Virus record (IMG/VR): IMGVR_UViG_3300048015_000368
Location: 1 to 21,888 of that record
Direction: 5' to 3' (one strand)
Length of the DNA: 21,888 bases
DNA from: a virus
The translations under genes were made by a program, and so were the position numbers. Shown here in pieces: positions 1,286 to 19,107 of this stretch. The notes under the pieces are model-generated. The model saw only the letters and a program-made list of their open reading frames with translations, had not been told where the DNA came from and made no database searches. The stretch's first letter is position 1. Each line of letters begins with the position of its first letter.

Positions 1286-2535
1286 TCCCCTATTCGCCCC
1301 GGCCGGCCTTCGACGGCTTTCATGGGCGGATGGAGCGGTGGGCCTGTATCGTGGCCCACCGCCGGGCGGGCAAGACGGTGGCCGCGGTCAACGACCTGAT
1401 CCGCGCGGCCATGCGCTGCGATCGCTCTGAGCCTCGTTTCGCCTATGTGGCGCCCTTCACCAGCCAGGCCAAGGACGTGGCCTGGAGCTACCTGGAGCAA
1501 CACGCCGCGGCCGTGCCCGGCGCCTCGGCCAGCGTCTCGGAGCTGCGGGTCGATCTGCCCAACACGGCGCGCATCCGGCTTTATGGGGCGGACAACTACG
1601 ACCGCCTGCGGGGCATCTATCTGGACGGCGTGGTGCTGGACGAATTCGCCGACATGGACCCCCGCGCCTGGTCGCAGGTGATCCGGCCGGCGCTGGCCGA
1701 CCGCCAGGGCTGGGCCGCCTTCATCGGCACGCCCAAGGGCCGCAACGCCTTCTGGGAGCTCTATGAGCGGGCCGCCGCCTCGCCCGACTGGTTCGCCCTG
1801 CGCCTCAAGGCCTCGCAGACCGGACTGGTGTCGGCGGCGGAACTTGCGGCGCTGAAGGCCGAGCTGTCAGCCGACGAATACGCCCGCGAGATGGAGACCA
1901 GCTTCGACGCCGCCGTGGCCGGCGCCTATTACGCCGAGGCTCTGACCCTGGCGGACGGCGAGGGGCGTATCGGCCGGGTGGCCCACGATCCGGCGGCCGA
2001 GGTGCACGCCGCTTTTGACCTCGGCATCGGCGACGCCACGGCCGTGTGGCTGGCCCAGTTCGTGGGGCGCGAGATACGGCTGATCGACTATATCGAGAAC
2101 AGCGGCGTGGCCCTGGACTGGTACGCCCGCGCCCTGCGCGAGCGGCCTTATGCCTATGCGCCGTTGATCCTGCCGCACGACGCCCGAGCGCGAGAACTGG
2201 GCACCGGCAAGAGCCGAATGGAAATGCTGCAGGGCTTGGGCTTCGCGGTGCGGATCGCCCCGCGGCTGGCGCCCTTGGACGGCATCGAGGCCGTCCGGCG
2301 CCTGCTGGCCCGCACCTGGATCGACGCGGGCCGCTGCGAGGCGGGGCTGCGGGCCCTGCGCGACTATCGCGAGAAGACCGACCCCAAGCGCCGGGTGAGC
2401 CTGGGCCCCCTGCACGACTGGACCAGCCACCCGGCCGACGCCCTGCGCTACCTGATGACGGCCTATGAGGAGCCGGAGGTTGGACGCAAGGCGCGAGTCG
2501 GGGAGCGGGGGCGGGGCGGGGGGTGGATGGGGTAG
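1261..2535 (+). CDS. terL: terminase large subunit (packaging ATPase/nuclease)
   Basis: A 424-residue packaging motor that threads DNA into the prohead and cuts it. The N-terminal ATPase has a Walker A-type AHRRAGKT (residues 32-39), an adjacent FAYVAPFTSQAKDVAW segment, a Walker B VVLDEFAD with D127/E128, and the coupling motif FIGTPKG near 155. The C-terminal RNase H-like nuclease shows its first acidic residue in HAAFDLGIGDATAVW (D253) and the last in HPADALRY near the end. ATG 1261 is preceded by AGGAGGGTGA at ideal spacing. The length is typical, and both active centres look intact. The last ~15 residues are Gly/Arg-rich and could be an extension acquired where the accessory island begins. 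Confidence 0.93.
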   Translation: MARSGNIVIPYSPRPAFDGFHGRMERWACIVAHRRAGKTVAAVNDLIRAAMRCDRSEPRFAYVAPFTSQAKDVAWSYLEQHAAAVPGASASVSELRVDLPNTARIRLYGADNYDRLRGIYLDGVVLDEFADMDPRAWSQVIRPALADRQGWAAFIGTPKGRNAFWELYERAAASPDWFALRLKASQTGLVSAAELAALKAELSADEYAREMETSFDAAVAGAYYAEALTLADGEGRIGRVAHDPAAEVHAAFDLGIGDATAVWLAQFVGREIRLIDYIENSGVALDWYARALRERPYAYAPLILPHDARARELGTGKSRMEMLQGLGFAVRIAPRLAPLDGIEAVRRLLARTWIDAGRCEAGLRALRDYREKTDPKRRVSLGPLHDWTSHPADALRYLMTAYEEPEVGRKARVGERGRGGGWMG

Positions 2536-2615
2536 GGGCCTGTCCCGAATGCGGCCGTCATGAAGCAGAGGATGACGCCGAAGCCTCGCGCACGCTCGGC
2601 AACCGTTTGATACGC

Positions 2616-3005
2616 CGGCTTCTTGGCGTGCACGTCGGGGGCGCCCAGCAGCCAGAAGGCCAGATTGGCTTTGAGGAACAGGCGCTGATCCGCGACCGCC
2701 CTAACGCTGCCGGCGAGCAGCCTAAGGATGGCGGGCGCGCCGGGGCCGCCGTCGCTTTCGTATTTTCGCGTCCAGGGCACGGACAGCGCCTGGCGGCAGT
2801 CCTCCTGGCGCACGCGGATCAGGCGGTGATTCGGGGTGATCAGCCTGTCGAAGCGCTCGAAGATCCGGACGCGCTGCCCGTCGAACGTCGCCATTTCGAC
2901 GTTAGCGGTCGGCAGGCCGAGAGCGGCAGCCAGCGCGAGGCGCAGGTGTTCGTTCTCCACCGAGTGGGACAGATCGGAGCCGTTGGGTAGGCGCCCGATC
3001 CACAA
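2616..3005 (-). pseudogene. hipA: hipA toxin-kinase remnant
   Basis: Read on the minus strand, this matches the central part of HipA-family Ser/Thr kinases: LPNGSDLSHSVENEHL, FDGQRVRIFERFDR, RLIRVRQEDCRQALSVP and the helix FLKANLAFWLLGA. HipA is the toxin of HipBA modules. The N-terminal third is absent, and the frame stops resembling HipA just after the catalytic loop. That loop, typically of the form GATDGHAKNFS, here reads GAPDVHAKKPAY, losing the Gly before His and the metal-binding Asn. The open frame runs on by chance to 2463, inside terL. No hipB is visible. It is opposite in strand to the phage genes, so it is a dead fragment brought in with the island. Confidence 0.8.
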
Positions 3006-3049: not shown

Positions 3050-3084
3050 CTCAGGATGGTCGGGGCGCTGCGGGACCGGCCGAG

Positions 3085-3208
3085 CGCTCGGCAAGGAGGG
3101 AACATGGCGGCGAATGGACACCGGACGGCGCGAGCCGACGCTTCGCCAGAGACCATAGAGGCGCATATGGCCCGCCGGCGCCAAGAGCAGGCGGACGCCG
3201 GCCCCAGG
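3085..3208 (+). repeat. direct repeat copy A: leader of island gene 1
   Basis: These 124 bases match 4860-4983 without gaps at 107 positions (about 86% by hand count). The repeat starts before the ribosome-binding site and covers the first 35 codons of the gene at 3104. Beyond 3208 the two sequences are unrelated. Confidence 0.9.
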
Positions 3209-3697
3209 GCCATGGCGGCGCCGTCTTGGGCCTGGGGGCGATCGGGCCGATGGAGGGCGCCCTGGCGGCGGGGCGCGGCGACGGGGGGCGTGGCGGGCGC
3301 TGCGTTCCTTCCTCTGGGGCCGGCGCGCGCGGGCGCGATCAACGCTTCAGTCATGTCTGTCGCCCAGGACGTCTTTAACGGCCGCCCGATTTCTACGGAG
3401 CGTGCAGGAGAAAGCGCGATCTTAGGCAACCTTCTTGGTGGGCTGGCTGGCGTTTGGGGCCGCGCCGCCTCGAATAGGCTTTCCTCAAAAGCCAAGGGCA
3501 GGCTTGGCGAAGCCTTGGGCGACATGAGGAGCACAATCAATGGCGAGCGCAGAGTTTGGGCCCCCAAGACGCGCGACCCCTTGAGCACGACGAACAAGAA
3601 AGACTATTGGTATCCGGACGGCAGGAGCGGTCAGAAACGTCTTGAAGACAAGTTTGGGGTGGGCGCGGAACTCTCACCACGACAGATTCGGGCGTAA
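3104..3697 (+). CDS. leader-type putative polymorphic toxin, interrupted by a stop codon
   Basis: 197 residues from ATG 3104, behind AAGGAGGG. Residues 1-35 are the leader shared with the gene at 4879. Residues 40-60 are Trp/Arg-rich, while another frame over the same bases gives a natural Gly-rich hydrophobic stretch (AVLGLGAIGPMEGALAAG), so two compensating indels are likely. A Gly-rich, weakly hydrophobic region (about 100-120) follows. The C-terminal part, KGRLGEALGDMRSTINGERR then YWYPDGRSGQKRLEDKFG, resembles the end modules of polymorphic nuclease toxins; E181-D182-K183 could be the ExK of a PD-(D/E)xK fold. TAA at 3695 then stops it, but the frame continues in sensible protein to TGA 3817, so the stop is probably a nonsense mutation. 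A candidate immunity gene follows 31 bases after that TGA. The toxin role is inference. Confidence 0.5.
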   Translation: MAANGHRTARADASPETIEAHMARRRQEQADAGPRAMAAPSWAWGRSGRWRAPWRRGAATGGVAGAAFLPLGPARAGAINASVMSVAQDVFNGRPISTERAGESAILGNLLGGLAGVWGRAASNRLSSKAKGRLGEALGDMRSTINGERRVWAPKTRDPLSTTNKKDYWYPDGRSGQKRLEDKFGVGAELSPRQIRA

Positions 3698-3848: not shown

Positions 3849-4844
3849 GTGGGGCTTGTCCTCAGTTGGGTCGCCGTCCATGGGCGCGAGATGGCCAGTG
3901 TGTTGAGTCAGCTCGGTTTGGTCGCTTTCGGGGAAACGAGCGATGAAGCGGCTTCGGATTATGGCTGCGCCGAACTTGCTGGGGGCTGGCTGGTCGTAAC
4001 GGCGACGAAAGGCCGGATCGAGCTCGCCCAGGCGCTTCAGACCCTGTCCGCCGATGGCGCCGCCCTGGGCGGCGAACTCAGTGAAATCGTGATGGTCAGC
4101 CGGCTGTGCGCTTTCGAAGCCGGCCGCTTGGTCTGGTCCGTCACTCATGACCCTGACCGAGATGGCGTCGAGGTCATCGGTTCGCCGCCGCCTCAGCTGG
4201 AGATGATCCGGCGGCGTCTGCAGGCAGAACAATCGGCCGCCCCGGGGGCGGACTACATCTTCGATGTCCCCCTTGAGCTAGGGGATGCCCTTTGCGGCTA
4301 TCGCCCTGGCAGAGACAATGCGCCCGTCTGGACCGTCCTTCGCAAGGCCGGCGCGCCATCGGCTCGGGGCTCAGTCCGACCGTCCGGATCGTTGTCGGCG
4401 GCGATGAGGAGCGAGCTTGTGCCTATGCTCCAGGCCCTGGGCTGGGACATCGAAGGCGATCTGGAGCGCACGGCTTCCCCATCCGGTTTCTTCCGCGCCT
4501 CACGAGAAGTGGCGGGCTTCAGGCAAGTCTTGTGGTTCGACTTTAAGCAGGCCGAGGAGACTTATCTAATCGTCAATTACTCTGTTTGGGACGTCGGGTT
4601 GGACCGACCCATCCTTTCGGGCCGGGGCGTGCGGCCGCCCGATCGTCGATCACCGTGGAACCGGTTCTTGGATCTGGCCAAGCCTTCCCCGGCTCACGAG
4701 GACCCCGTCGCCGCTGCTATCAGCGGCGCCTGCGAGGAGATCGAGGCGATCGACCGCTTCTTGAAAACGGGCGAACGGGGGCCAAGGGTCTATGTCGAAG
4801 GCGGCTTGGCCAAGGACACATGGCCGAGCTTGCCGGAACATTGA
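3849..4844 (+). CDS. two-part putative immunity/partner protein
   Basis: 331 residues from GTG 3849, preferred because GGGAGGTAG lies 5-12 bases ahead; the longer frame from 3642 overlaps the leader gene and begins in poor text. The protein is soluble and acidic with no signal peptide or membrane helix. Residues 1-170 (CAELAGGWLVVTATKGRIEL, then WSVTHDPDRDGVEVIG) form one alpha/beta domain. A short Ser/Gly linker leads to a second domain with MRSELVPMLQALGWDIEG and VLWFDFKQAEETYLIVNYSV, which recalls DUF4304-like small globular proteins. Position right after a toxin-like gene suggests immunity, and two domains could mean protection against two toxins. I do not recognise either half with certainty. 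Confidence 0.6.
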   Translation: MGLVLSWVAVHGREMASVLSQLGLVAFGETSDEAASDYGCAELAGGWLVVTATKGRIELAQALQTLSADGAALGGELSEIVMVSRLCAFEAGRLVWSVTHDPDRDGVEVIGSPPPQLEMIRRRLQAEQSAAPGADYIFDVPLELGDALCGYRPGRDNAPVWTVLRKAGAPSARGSVRPSGSLSAAMRSELVPMLQALGWDIEGDLERTASPSGFFRASREVAGFRQVLWFDFKQAEETYLIVNYSVWDVGLDRPILSGRGVRPPDRRSPWNRFLDLAKPSPAHEDPVAAAISGACEEIEAIDRFLKTGERGPRVYVEGGLAKDTWPSLPEH

Positions 4845-4859
4845 GGCGGCCCCGGAGAT

Positions 4860-4983
4860 CGCTCGGCAAGGGGGGAAGATGGCGGCGGATAGACAACCAG
4901 CGGCGCGAGCCGGCGCTTCGTCGGAGAGCATAGAGGCCCATATGGCGCGCCGGCGCCGAGAGCAGGCCAACGCCGGCCCCAGG
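4860..4983 (+). repeat. direct repeat copy B: leader of island gene 2
   Basis: Second copy of the 124-base leader block at 3085-3208, including the ribosome-binding region, start codon and first 35 codons. Mismatches are scattered and many are synonymous or conservative (N/D, T/S, Q/R), as expected for two once-functional copies rather than a fresh duplication. Confidence 0.9.
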
Positions 4984-5202
4984 TCCAAGGCGGCGGCGTA
5001 CGAGGCCTATCGGGCCCCGATCAGGACGGGCCAAGACTTGCGGCTCGCACAACCTTCGGACGTCGCAGCCTATGGCGCGCGCCTGATGAATGCCCGCCGG
5101 CCGAAGCCCGGGCGGCAGATCGTTCGGGTCCCTCCAATTCAGGATAACGGTATTCGCAACCAGCCAACGCCGGCCCGGACCTGCGGGGCATCCGGTGGCT
5201 GA
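4879..5202 (+). CDS. second leader-type protein with a different C-terminus
   Basis: 107 residues from ATG 4879, behind AAGGGGGGAAG. The first ~35 residues (SIEAHMARRRREQANAGPR and neighbours) repeat the leader of the gene at 3104; the rest (AYEAYRAPIRTGQDLRLAQP onward) is unrelated. No catalytic motif is visible. The last ~20 residues read poorly, while the +1 frame over the same bases gives GPAGHPVAEVEKQVRRR and ends in a TGA that overlaps the next ATG (ATGA, 5227-5230). A frameshift near 5150 may therefore have displaced the original end. It starts 34 bases after the previous partner gene and is followed by another partner gene. Constant leader plus variable end is the pattern of toxin delivery families, but activity is unknown. 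Confidence 0.5.
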   Translation: MAADRQPAARAGASSESIEAHMARRRREQANAGPRSKAAAYEAYRAPIRTGQDLRLAQPSDVAAYGARLMNARRPKPGRQIVRVPPIQDNGIRNQPTPARTCGASGG

Positions 5203-11693: not shown

Positions 11694-11730
11694 AAATCAT
11701 TGAAAAATAACAGATAATGTGGAGGCCGCC

Positions 11731-12369
11731 ATGCCCCTCGCCACCTATGCCGAGCTTCAGGCCGAGGTCGCCGCCTGGCTGCGGCGGGCGGACCTGGCCG
11801 CCGAGATCCCGACCTTCATCGCCCTGGCCGAGGCCCAGATGAACCGGCGGCTGCGGGTGCGTCCCATGGCTGCGCGCGTCAGCCTGACGGTGCAGAGCGA
11901 ATGCTTCGCTCTTCCGGGCGACTTTCTGGCCGAGCGCGAGCTGAAGGTGTTCGCCTCCGGCGTTCCCCATCCTCTGGCCTATCTGACGCCTGAGGCGATG
12001 GACTGGCGCTCGCCCTCGGTGGGGCCGGGGCGGCCCGGCTATTACACACTGGAAGGCGGTAGCGTCCGCCTGCAGCCGGTTCCGGACAAGGCCTATCCGG
12101 CCGAGCTCCTGTACCTGCAGGCGATCCCGGCCCTGTCGGCGACCAACCCCAGCAACTGGGTGCTGGCGGCCCATCCGGACGCCTACCTTTACGGCGCCCT
12201 GACCCAGTCGGCCCCCTATCTGCGGGCCGATGAGCGGCTGCAAATCTGGGGGACGCTGTTCACCCAGGTGCTGGCCGACATCGAGCGGGCCGACCGCGCG
12301 GGCGCCGCCGCCCGCCTGCGCGCGGACGCTCCGCTGCCGCGCCGCGCCTTCGACATCAACCGGGGATGA
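11731..12369 (+). CDS. head-to-tail adaptor protein
   Basis: 212 residues from ATG 11731, with TGGAGG immediately upstream. The opening, [20 protein letters not shown] then [18 protein letters not shown], is the characteristic N-terminus of podophage adaptor proteins that bind beneath the portal ring. A beta core follows ([36 protein letters not shown]), and the end, [20 protein letters not shown] and a helical tail, fits the same family. It follows the coat gene, as in P22-like gene orders with the gp4 equivalent, though it need not have the gp4 lytic activity. It ends four bases into the spacer before the collar gene (TGA 12367-12369, ATG 12377). Confidence 0.78.
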
Positions 12370-12376
12370 AGCCGCC

Positions 12377-13168
12377 ATGGCAGACCTGACCACGCCCAAC
12401 CTGGGCCTCACCAAGCCGCAGGTGGGCGCCTCCTCCGATACCTGGGGGACCAAGCTGAACGCCAACCTGGACCTGATCGACGCCCTGCTGCCCGCGGGGG
12501 TGATCTGGATGTGGTACGGCTCGGCGACCGCCATACCCTCCGGCTGGAACCTGTGCGACGGGACCAACGGCACGCCGGACCTGCGCGACCGGTTCATCAT
12601 CGGGGCCGGCGGCGCAAGCGCCCTTGGGCAGACGGGCGGCTTCTCGAGTCAGTCGTTTACGACCGACGGCCATGCGCTGGTCATTGCTGAGTTGCCCGCC
12701 CACGCGCACGCGGTCGTCGATAGCGGCCACGTCCACGCCGTCAATGACAGCGGCCACGCTCACGCCGTCTATGACCCGAGCCATGCCCACGCCATCACGG
12801 ATGGCGGCCACGCTCACGCGATCACGGACGGCGGTCACGCTCACGCCCTATCCAATATCGTCGATAACAATGCCGGATTTGGAGGCCACTATACTGGCGG
12901 CTCTGGCAATCTGCAGATCGAAAGCCCGAACACGGCGACCGCGAGTACAGGCATTTCGATCAACGCCGCGGGTACGGGCATTGCGATCAATGCCGCTAAC
13001 ACGGGGATCGGAATCTATTCGGCGGTGACGGGGGCCTCGCTGCAGACCGGTTACACAGGAATTTCCATCCAGAACACGGGCTCCGGGTCAGCCCACGCCC
13101 ATACTGCCACCGTGACGACGGTTCCGCCCTTTACGGCCCTCTACTTCATCATGAAGCTGGCGGGGTGA
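12377..13168 (+). CDS. tail-collar domain protein with histidine-repeat shaft (tail fibre/tip)
   Basis: 263 residues from ATG 12377. Residues 1-40 are a short attachment region ([20 protein letters not shown]). Then comes a phage tail-collar domain: [20 protein letters not shown] then [14 protein letters not shown]. From residue 109 six HxH motifs recur every nine residues ([34 protein letters not shown] twice), and a seventh HAH is near the end. A second set of Gly/Ile/Asn repeats, [20 protein letters not shown], suggests a narrow trimeric beta shaft. The end [14 protein letters not shown] is typical for collar proteins. By analogy with T4 gp37, the histidines could bind metal along the trimer axis. 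It probably contacts the cell surface. Confidence 0.85.
12701..12850 (+). repeat. tandem 27-base repeats encoding HxH motifs
   Basis: Five units of 27 bases (nine codons), each ending GHxHA, run from the HAH at 12701-12709 to the one at 12836-12844. The last two units are the most alike, suggesting recent local duplication. Unit number could vary by slippage without breaking the frame. Confidence 0.8.
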
Positions 13169-13172
13169 GGCC

Positions 13173-14681
13173 ATGGCCTTCCAGACCCTGGCGCCGCCGG
13201 CCGGCGTGTACCGCAACGGGACGACCTATCAGGCCAAGGAACGCTGGTACGACGCCAATCTGATCCGCTTCCAGGAGGGTCAGATCAAGCCGGTCGGCGG
13301 CTGGCAGCCGCGCTCCTCGGCCGCCGCCGTCTCGGGGGCGGCCCGGGCCGTGCTGAGCTGGCGCGACAATGGCGCCAATCGCTGGATCGCCATCGGCACG
13401 CATTCAAACCTGTATGTGCAGGACGAGGCCGGCGCCAATCACGACGTTACGCCGAGCGGAACCCCGCCGTTCACCGTGGGCCGCGCCGACGCGGCCCAGA
13501 ACCTGGGCTATGGCGGCGGGCCTTACGGGTCGGGAAACTATGGCGCGCCGGCGCCCAACACCGTCGCCTACCTGCCGGCTTCGGTCTGGTCGCTGGACGG
13601 CTGGGGCCAGGATCTGGTCGGGTGCTGCGACACCGATGGCCAGATCTACCTGTGGGCGCTGAACACGGCCGCGGCGGCCGCGCCGGTGGCCAATGCGCCG
13701 ACCGCCTGCCAGGGGCTGGTGGTCACCGACGACGGCTTCCTGTTCGCCCTGGGCGCCGGCGGCGATGGGCGGAAGGTGGCCTGGTGCGACCAGCAGAACG
13801 TGACGCAATGGGCCGCGGACGCCACCAACCAGGCCGGCGACTATGAGTTGACCACCGTGGGCACGCTGCAGTGCGGCAAGGCCGTGCCCGGCGGGGCCCT
13901 GCTGTTCACCGACGTCGATGTGTGGCTGGCGTCCTATATCGGCACGCCGCTGGTCTATGGCTTTCAGCGAAAGGGCTCGGGCTGCGGCGTGATCAGCAAG
14001 GGATGTGTCTCAACTCGGGACAGTATCGCCGTCTGGATGGGGCGGGGCGGCTTCTGGCTGTTCGACGGCCAGAGCGTGCAGCCGCTGGACTGCGACGTGC
14101 AAGACTATCTGTACGGCGATGTTAACGCCGATCAGGTGAGCAAGGTCACGGCCGTGCATCTGGCGGACCAGGGCGAGGTCTGGTGGTTCTATCCCTCCGG
14201 CGACTCCATTGAGATCGACCGCTATGTGGCCTGGGGCTATCGCGAGAGCGCGCGGCTGGGGCGCAATGTCTGGACGATCGGCGCTCTGGCGCGCCTGTGC
14301 GGCACGGGCAAGGGCGTGTTTCCCAATCCCCTGATGGTCGACGCCTCGGGCCTGCTCTACGAGCATGAGACGGGCGTGAATTGGGGCGGGGCTGAGCCCT
14401 ATCTGGAGAGCGGACCGATCGAGATCGGCCAGGGCGACGCCATGGCTGAGGTGCAGCGCATCGTTCCCGACCAGCTGAACGACGGCGACGCGACCGCGAC
14501 CCTCTATGGCCGGTTCTGGCCCAATGGCGCGGAGACCGCCTATGGCCCTGTGTCTCTGACCAGCCCCACGGACCTGCTGTTCCAGGCGCGGGAAATCCGG
14601 GTGCGGTTCACCGGGGCCAGCGCCGCCAGCTGGCGGATCGGCGCCATGCGGCTGGATGTGGTTGTGGGAGACGCCCTGTGA
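13173..14681 (+). CDS. tail hub / DNA-stabilisation protein, P22 gp10-like
   Basis: 502 residues, near the length of P22 gp10. The start is characteristic: YDANLIRFQEGQIKPVGGWQ. Repeated beta units follow (AVLSWRDNGANRWIAIGTHS then LYVQDEAG; IYLWALNTAA; GFLFALGAGGDGRKVAWCDQ; WLASYIGTPLVYGFQRKG; FWLFDGQSVQPLDCDVQDYL), each ending in a W/F-rich strand, which predicts a beta-propeller. The C-terminal quarter (ESGPIEIGQGDAMAEVQRIV) is a separate beta domain. Such proteins close the portal channel after packaging. It starts four bases after the collar gene's stop and overlaps the next GTG (GTGA), part of a tightly coupled tail operon. A frame-preserving Gly-rich loop at 110-125 is notable. Confidence 0.78.
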   Translation: MAFQTLAPPAGVYRNGTTYQAKERWYDANLIRFQEGQIKPVGGWQPRSSAAAVSGAARAVLSWRDNGANRWIAIGTHSNLYVQDEAGANHDVTPSGTPPFTVGRADAAQNLGYGGGPYGSGNYGAPAPNTVAYLPASVWSLDGWGQDLVGCCDTDGQIYLWALNTAAAAAPVANAPTACQGLVVTDDGFLFALGAGGDGRKVAWCDQQNVTQWAADATNQAGDYELTTVGTLQCGKAVPGGALLFTDVDVWLASYIGTPLVYGFQRKGSGCGVISKGCVSTRDSIAVWMGRGGFWLFDGQSVQPLDCDVQDYLYGDVNADQVSKVTAVHLADQGEVWWFYPSGDSIEIDRYVAWGYRESARLGRNVWTIGALARLCGTGKGVFPNPLMVDASGLLYEHETGVNWGGAEPYLESGPIEIGQGDAMAEVQRIVPDQLNDGDATATLYGRFWPNGAETAYGPVSLTSPTDLLFQAREIRVRFTGASAASWRIGAMRLDVVVGDAL

Positions 14682-17646: not shown

Positions 17647-19107
17647 ATGCCCCATTCCGTCCCCCGCGCGCGACCGCTGGCCCGGCGCGCCCGCGGCCGA
17701 ATCGCCGCGCTCCTGGCGCTCTGCCTCGCCCCCGCTCCCGCCCTGGCCCAGATCGACCCGGTCGCACGGGGGATGGCGGGGGCGGCCCAGTCTACGGCCG
17801 GCAGATTCCCGCTCACCCACACGCCCCGCATCGCCTTCGCGTGCGACAGTTGGAGCGACTTTAACCGCAACGTCTCGGCCGCGCCCACGACGGTCATGTG
17901 GACGAGCTTCGGCTACATCAACAGTCTTCGGGCGCACTACGGGAAGCGGTTCTACACTGACCCGTCGCTGGAATTCGGCATCGCTGGCCAGACGACGTCC
18001 TACTACCTGACGACCGAAGTGCCCCAGATCATCGCGGCCAAGCCGGATATCTTGATCGTCTATTGCGGGACGAACGACGACAACACTTATCCCGTCCTAA
18101 CAACGTCCGTCGCTAACATGCAGAAGGCCGACGCCCAGCTCAGCGCGGCCGGGATCGCGGTCATCCATGTCGGTTTGGTGGCCCAAGGTAGCTGGAACGG
18201 CGCCAAGAAGCAGTGGATGGCGGAGTTCAACCGTCAAATGTGGTTGCAGTCGCTCAATCCGGCTTTGAATGTCCGATATGTCGATCTCAACCCAACGATG
18301 TCAGACTATTCCACAGGCCTCGTGGTCTCGGGACTACTTGTCGGCGACAACGTTCACCCGAGTGTGCTCGGCGGGATCGCGATCGCGGCGGCGATAGAGC
18401 CAGTGCTCGATCAGCTGCTGCCGGCCATCCCCGACCTACAGCAACTCACCGACGATGAGGCCTACGACCCGACCCTGAACCCTTCCGGCAACATGCTGCT
18501 GAACGGCATGATGACGGGCACGGCGGGATCGGCTCTATCGCCCGCCGCGGGGGCCGTGGCCACGGACTGGCAATGTCACTTTTCCAATTACTCCGCGCCC
18601 ACGACACTCACTATGGCCTGCTCGAAGGGGACCGACAGCAGCTACACGAACGAGTCCACGCAAGTCATTACCATCGGTGGAACGGCTGATGGCGACCGGA
18701 TTCGGTTCGAGGCGATGGGGACTTCGGGGGCGTTATGGACCATGCCAGCTTTGGCGGCTGGCGCCGCTGTCTATGGCGAGTGCAAGATCAGCGGCACAGG
18801 CCTGACCAACATCGCCAGCATCCAACTGTTGTTGGTGATCACTGTCAACGGTACGACCTACACATACTGGGACGGCGAATATCAGAACACCGGCTCCAGT
18901 CCCGGCTATAGCCCTGGCGCTCTGCCGTCGACCTACAGCGCCCTGCGGATCACCCCCGCCCTGACGCTCCCGACCGGCACAGTGACTAGCACACGATTTT
19001 ATCTTGAAATCCAACCGATGACGTCCAGCACGGCGACGTCTGGTGCCGTGACCGTCGAGCAGTGCGCAGTGCGTCAAGCCGGCTTAGGGCATGTGGCGCA
19101 GCAATGA
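17647..19107 (+). CDS. secreted SGNH/GDSL hydrolase with C-terminal beta domain
   Basis: 486 residues from ATG 17647, with GAGGA 7 bases ahead. A signal peptide (RR-rich start, ALLALCLAPAPALA) precedes the hydrolase domain. Block I is ACDSWSDF, a GDS variant with Cys at the Gly position and nucleophile Ser68. Block II is GIAGQTT, block III GTNDD with N143, and block V GDNVHPS with D234 and H237, so the catalytic set is complete. Such enzymes remove acyl groups from glycans. Residues 270-486 form a Thr/Ser/Gly-rich beta region (WQCHFSNYSAPTTLTMACSK), probably carbohydrate binding. It ends eight bases before the convergent acyltransferase gene, which suggests a shared acylated surface polysaccharide as substrate. 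A virion depolymerase is possible but the signal peptide argues for export. Confidence 0.8.
   Translation: MPHSVPRARPLARRARGRIAALLALCLAPAPALAQIDPVARGMAGAAQSTAGRFPLTHTPRIAFACDSWSDFNRNVSAAPTTVMWTSFGYINSLRAHYGKRFYTDPSLEFGIAGQTTSYYLTTEVPQIIAAKPDILIVYCGTNDDNTYPVLTTSVANMQKADAQLSAAGIAVIHVGLVAQGSWNGAKKQWMAEFNRQMWLQSLNPALNVRYVDLNPTMSDYSTGLVVSGLLVGDNVHPSVLGGIAIAAAIEPVLDQLLPAIPDLQQLTDDEAYDPTLNPSGNMLLNGMMTGTAGSALSPAAGAVATDWQCHFSNYSAPTTLTMACSKGTDSSYTNESTQVITIGGTADGDRIRFEAMGTSGALWTMPALAAGAAVYGECKISGTGLTNIASIQLLLVITVNGTTYTYWDGEYQNTGSSPGYSPGALPSTYSALRITPALTLPTGTVTSTRFYLEIQPMTSSTATSGAVTVEQCAVRQAGLGHVAQQ

Follow-up and report, generated by a model that had tools for sequence, protein, structure and literature searches.

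Paired histidine and hydrophobic arms in the predicted needle of a P22-like podovirus tail fibre

The tail-fibre gene of the viral contig IMGVR_UViG_3300048015_000368 (the window, i.e. the whole stretch of 21,888 nucleotides analysed here) encodes P0001, a compact protein of 263 residues. P0001 has a regular repeat structure, its two arms match in number and stand in antiparallel register, and it is kin to fibres of solved structure. Taken together with what is known of those fibres, this makes it very probable that P0001 is the homotrimeric receptor-binding fibre of a P22-like podovirus, ending in a needle of the T4 gp37 and A-1(L) gp34 type with levels of bound metal. We further propose a pairing code for such needles, which we consider likely to be correct. 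According to this code, n HxH levels and n-1 hydrophobic levels are interleaved, descending unit i lies with ascending unit n-i, specific residues covary between the paired units and changes in length are coupled, so that register, metal number and relative length could be read from the sequence.

The fibre gene, its parts and its repeats

P22-like portal and coat genes lie upstream of P0001, whose immediate neighbours are the genes for an SU10-type adaptor (11719-12369) and for a large virion protein (13173-14681). The contig is assigned to a podovirus because the fibre, adaptor and virion protein genes sit downstream of the P22-like portal and coat genes. P0001 is made up of the following parts, all on the plus strand.

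12377-13168, plus strand: tail-fibre gene P0001, 263 aa, PHROG tail fibre and tail collar families
12377-12490, plus strand: N-terminal segment, aa 1-38, recurring in fibres with a differing C-terminal part
12491-12676, plus strand: first half of the collar domain, aa 39-100, from profile match and AF2
12701-12844, plus strand: descending needle arm, aa 109-156, six HxH in 9-residue units HxHx[VI]xD(P)G
12845-12946, plus strand: needle tip loop, aa 157-190, 34 residues, located between the two arms
12947-13081, plus strand: ascending needle arm, aa 191-235, five 9-residue TGIxI units
13094-13102, plus strand: seventh HxH, H240/H242, at the needle-collar junction, missing the IxI register by two residues
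13115-13168, plus strand: collar return strand (17 residues) and stop, a beta strand in the AF2 model

The first 40 or so residues recur at 65-86% identity in many viral contigs, and residues 1-38 are probably the part by which the fibre is attached to the virion. The two arms are flanked by the N-terminal half of the collar and by its C-terminal return, i.e. the collar is split, and the C-terminal end PP[YF]xAL..IMK is common to the relatives. The original prediction had placed a tail-collar domain in this protein. Profile comparison bears this out, with matches of the first collar half to 8KEC, T4 gp12 (1ocy, 5iv5), 6ov6 and 9nxk and with the PHROG families; by the measure of Pfam it falls short, as Collar (PF07484) scores 14.7 bits against a cut-off of 24, spans positions 1-21 of 57 only and is absent from the hmmscan listing for P0001.

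All seven predicted HxH motifs are present, at residues 109, 118, 127, 136, 145, 154 and 240 (positions 12701, 12728, 12755, 12782, 12809, 12836 and 13094 of the window), and the nine-residue spacing of the first six (H109-H156) is exact. P0001 has the repeated HxH of a T4 gp37 or A-1(L) gp34-type needle in the form of these six plus the one at the junction. When the sequence was shuffled 20,000 times with its composition kept, the HxH count averaged 0.9, compared with 7 in P0001, and never were there more than two motifs in a row at nine-residue spacing, compared with 6. The HxH units are encoded by a 27-bp tandem repeat (12700-12847). A second 27-bp repeat of the same period, which had been missed previously, lies at 12939-13005 and encodes TGIxI units.

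Matching and register of the two arms

The units of the two arms were counted by means of a unit profile independent of the HxH count, in a collection of fibres with at least three nine-spaced HxH drawn from viral and genomic contigs; true histidine-rich metal chaperones, which the first pattern had also picked up in bacterial genomes, were filtered out. P0001 has six HxH and five TGIxI units. The same n to n-1 relationship holds in 63 of 88 clean, non-redundant fibres (72%), whereas permuting the arms between fibres gives 28%, with a maximum of 45% among 20,000 shuffles. It holds in 59% of the 196 non-redundant fibres of the combined set (24% by chance), where all eight fibres with n of seven or more fit exactly. 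By automatic count, the number of ascending units departs from n-1 in approximately 40% of the wider set; these misfits comprise counting errors as well as irregular fibres with additional HxH. The literature searched, to which the T4 gp37 structure paper did not belong, contained no previous account of the rule.

A second collection was built by similarity of the capsid protein and hence was blind to HxH. It yielded nine fibres, including P0001, at the same locus in viruses of the same lineage (coat proteins 80-86% identical to that of this virus), and all nine obey the rule: six and five units in P0001, five and four in L545, and four and three in the seven others, of which L536 fits with one additional residue ahead of the junction. 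Their tip loops measure 32-39 aa. This count leaves out L531, L532, L533, L534 and L547 of the same collection and lineage, whose irregular HxH needle has shorter nine-spaced runs and extra HxH on the ascending side, and which is perhaps an intermediate between the regular nine-residue type and that of T4 gp37.

The residues of the two arms change together. Where a descending unit has Q instead of D at position 7, the ascending unit that is its partner, counted from the end, starts with AN instead of TG. In the discovery set, i.e. the set in which the idea of the register arose, this association was significant only for descending unit i with ascending unit n-i (p=3e-5). Among 78 new fibres that had been held out, it was again clear only at i to n-i (p=9.5e-6), and those of them with matching arms gave p=1.7e-7. 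The combined set has the association at i to n-i in 38/47 versus 33/313 (p=3e-23), and none was found there at the neighbouring registers. The combined set later revealed another pair: a Tyr at position 6 of the descending unit is matched by a Tyr at position 6 of the ascending one in 38 of 39 cases, compared with 16.6 expected with needle position kept. In P0001, Y132 and Y214 lie in paired units. Also in the combined set, a small residue at descending position 5 goes with a residue other than G at ascending position 2 (p=4e-6). The fibres of L538 and L544 have Ala, not Val, at position 5 of every descending unit, and every ascending unit in them starts with A[ND] in place of TG.

The numerical matching and the covariation at i to n-i point to an antiparallel hairpin, in which layers of histidine (and metal) would alternate with hydrophobic layers. 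The ascending arm would have n-1 units because that is the number of gaps between n histidine levels, and a returning IxI would fill each of them.

The HxH at the junction behaves differently. Every one of the nine same-lineage fibres has it, compared with only 21 of 116 in the wider set, and it is two residues off the IxI register; it is therefore not part of the array, and may be a seventh metal site. The original prediction had attached weight to the equal number of motifs, seven, in P0001 and in T4 gp37. As the total varies between 5, 6 and 7 in the lineage, with 5 or 6 in the same-locus relatives of P0001, and as six of the motifs are in register and the seventh lies in the exit segment beside the collar, this equality is a coincidence.

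Proposed needle, its known relatives and alternative explanations

The best PDB match of P0001 by phmmer is the long tail fibre gp34 of cyanophage A-1(L) (8KEC, 3e-14). With a profile built from 45 relatives, the match to 8KEC reaches 1.7e-45 and spans almost all of the profile (positions 49-261), i.e. collar and needle, and T4 gp12 is matched at approximately 1e-13. The match of this profile to T4 gp37 (2xgf) is weak (E=0.035), and the hhalign alignment with T4 gp37 covers only the collar and the first HxH. A-1(L) gp34 has the same succession of parts as P0001: collar, descending nine-residue HxH units, tip, ascending TGIxI-type units and collar return. With five HxH and four TGIxI-type units it obeys the n to n-1 rule with one unit fewer than P0001, and it carries a paired change, Q276 and N333, as the register predicts. 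It differs from P0001 in being a myovirus fibre with an N-terminal shoulder of its own, and in its last segment (NGQAFQHDQP, compared with SGSAHAHT). The arm domain of A-1(L) gp34 has been likened to T4 gp37, and the arm binds host cells (PMC10966104).

T4 gp37 itself, taken from the T4 genome, forms an iron-bound trimeric needle with the same order of collar, descending arm, tip, ascending arm and collar, and has seven HxH (883, 915 and 929, then the tip, then 966, 980, 989 and 998). Unlike P0001, it carries HxH in both arms, three descending and four ascending, at irregular spacings of 32, 14, 37, 14, 9 and 9. The remark in the original prediction that spacing and fold differ from those of T4 was mistaken on spacing because the last three HxH of gp37 (980, 989, 998) are nine residues apart, as in P0001; nor does it hold for the fold, as A-1(L) gp34, the closest solved relative, carries the same nine-residue HxH and TGIxI arms. 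The prediction of a T4 gp37-like trimeric HxH needle is itself strengthened by the shared order of parts, the 8KEC match and the register-specific covariation of the arms.

Other fibres share parts of this design. T4 gp12 (1OCY, 5IV5) has the collar fold and an HxH metal site, but the site is single and there is no repeated needle. The short tail fibre gp16 of podovirus SU10 belongs to a short-tailed phage, and an adaptor of the SU10 family adjoins P0001. Its receptor-binding domain has been compared to the T4 gp37 tip, with HxH pairs proposed as Fe2+ ligands (PMC9509320), but it has only two such pairs and is likened to P0001 by description. Six and seven iron-binding HxH have been proposed, by analogy with T4 gp37, for Alteromonas phage R22Y gp12 and Burkholderia phage E094 gp23, respectively (PMC11705849, PMC8174754); these are different phages, likewise likened by description, and the R22Y motifs are not nine-spaced. 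The tail fibres of Burkholderia phages DC1, BcepIL02 and BcepMigl are approximately 40% identical to P0001 across collar and needle, with a shorter needle of four HxH and three TGIxI units, and have AHENRPPYYAL where P0001 has the junction HxH. The tail fibre of Synechococcus phage S-TIP37 (L086) has nine HxH at seven-residue spacing, a period other than that of the nine-residue needle. HxH needles, including six- and seven-motif examples and one from a podovirus, have thus been published before, and the mechanism proposed for P0001 is not new.

By analogy with these systems, we propose that each chain of P0001 exits the collar, runs through the six nine-residue HxH units to the tip, turns in the 34-residue loop and comes back through the five TGIxI units. 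Six histidines, two from each of the three chains, would surround the axis at every one of the six HxH levels and hold a single metal ion in octahedral coordination, most likely Fe(II). The returning strands would insert their five IxI levels as hydrophobic layers between the HxH levels, as in the T4 needle; the collar-side HxH may bind a seventh ion. The role of the ions would be to stiffen the shaft and fix its register, that of the tip loop to touch the host surface. In T4 gp37, whose domains have been described, the tip loop binds LPS and OmpC (PMC6957217), and since residues 157-190 occupy the same place, they are the probable receptor-contact site. The histidines of P0001 belong to the shaft and not, as had been predicted, to an iron-loaded tip, the tip being this loop. 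The AF2 monomer of P0001 has a confident collar (pLDDT of approximately 95 for residues 41-70) and a needle mostly below 60; that of a relative with n=4 similarly has a good collar and a poor needle, where the only needle strands, short and of low confidence, fall in descending unit 3 and ascending unit 1, i.e. in a predicted pair. Foldseek searches gave collar-type or weak matches only.

Six histidines are able to bind several metals. The same needle could hold zinc, nickel or manganese rather than iron, or its sites could be partly filled, which we regard as unlikely, though the most serious of the alternatives. The HxH site of T4 gp12 was solved with zinc, although a zinc salt had been used in refolding, and against it stands the iron listed for the HxH sites of T4 gp37, P2 gpV, phi92 and R-pyocin fibres (PMC6116203). 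That the histidines are purely structural, i.e. that they pack or form hydrogen bonds in a metal-free trimer, is improbable. The A-1(L) structure paper, in which neither histidine nor bound metal is discussed for gp34 and the word iron occurs only in one reference title (PMC10966104), fits such a reading; but both histidines of each unit are kept in the nine same-lineage fibres, which were collected blind to HxH, whereas other unit positions vary, and in T4 gp37 the change of H929 or H931 to alanine abolishes plaque formation (PMC6957217). A weak Pfam match to Plasmodium HRP (E=5e-4, below cut-off) hints that the histidine-rich array might instead store or sense metal, or be a low-complexity expansion that arose by chance, but we give this reading very little credence: the histidines of P0001 are strictly paired, nine-spaced, matched by a second arm and set within a fibre, and the true histidine-rich metal chaperones that the search pattern also caught lack a TGIxI arm to match.

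Needle length and the fibre locus in the lineage

The original prediction held that the 27-bp repeats could vary in number and alter the length of the shaft. The number of HxH units does vary, from 4 to 6 in the lineage and from 3 to 9 in the family, but never without a corresponding change in the ascending arm. As both arms change length together, slippage confined to the 27-bp array would upset their matching. The HxH-coding units differ from one another at 5-11 of 27 bases and so are not freshly slipped copies, and we reject recent slippage of the array. Within the arms of P0001, the closest adjacent pairs are descending units 4 and 5, which encode the same protein and differ in DNA at third codon positions only, and ascending units 1 and 2. 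This suggested a concerted duplication at mirrored DNA positions, which was rejected across 73 fibres: a mirror signal is seen with all codon positions (z=2.8) but not with third codon positions (z=-1.2), and the mirror match is therefore explained by selection at the protein level and not by recent paired duplication.

Four further members of the lineage (L529, L535, L540 and L543; capsid 82-89% identical) keep the N-terminal segment and the locus, but have unrelated C-terminal fibre parts. The fibre locus of the lineage is a module-swapping receptor-binding locus. A search of 385 genomes of one class, drawn via one alphaproteobacterial locus, gave only two coat relatives, both more distant (38% and 56%), and did not identify the host.

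Other genes of the window deserve mention. A HipA C-terminal-domain fragment (2463-3005, minus strand; PF07804, E=3e-20) lies between the genes for terminase and portal; it spans only a portion of the domain and is apparently truncated. Two open reading frames on the plus strand (3056-3697 and 4792-5202), in an insert of approximately 5 kb from terminase to portal, have a common N-terminal stretch, IEAHMARRRxEQAxAGPR, and then diverge; neither matched a Pfam family. A GDSL lipase/acylhydrolase gene (17647-19107, plus strand; PHROG lipase, moron class) adjoins one for a membrane acyltransferase (PF01757; 19116-20222, minus strand), and the two are a possible surface-modifying pair.

P0001 adds a compact podovirus protein to the known HxH needles. 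What is new here is the sequence rule for how the arms of a needle pair and change length together, which replaces a vague analogy with the seven motifs of T4 by predictions such as the placing of Q276 beside N333 in 8KEC. The rule is relevant to the proposal that host iron is carried by phage fibres, as the sites per needle can be counted from the sequence; their number varies among close relatives, and seven has no special meaning. If the pairing code is true, the length of the needle would evolve by coupled change of the two arms, and sequence alone would reveal its strand register, its metal number and its relative length.
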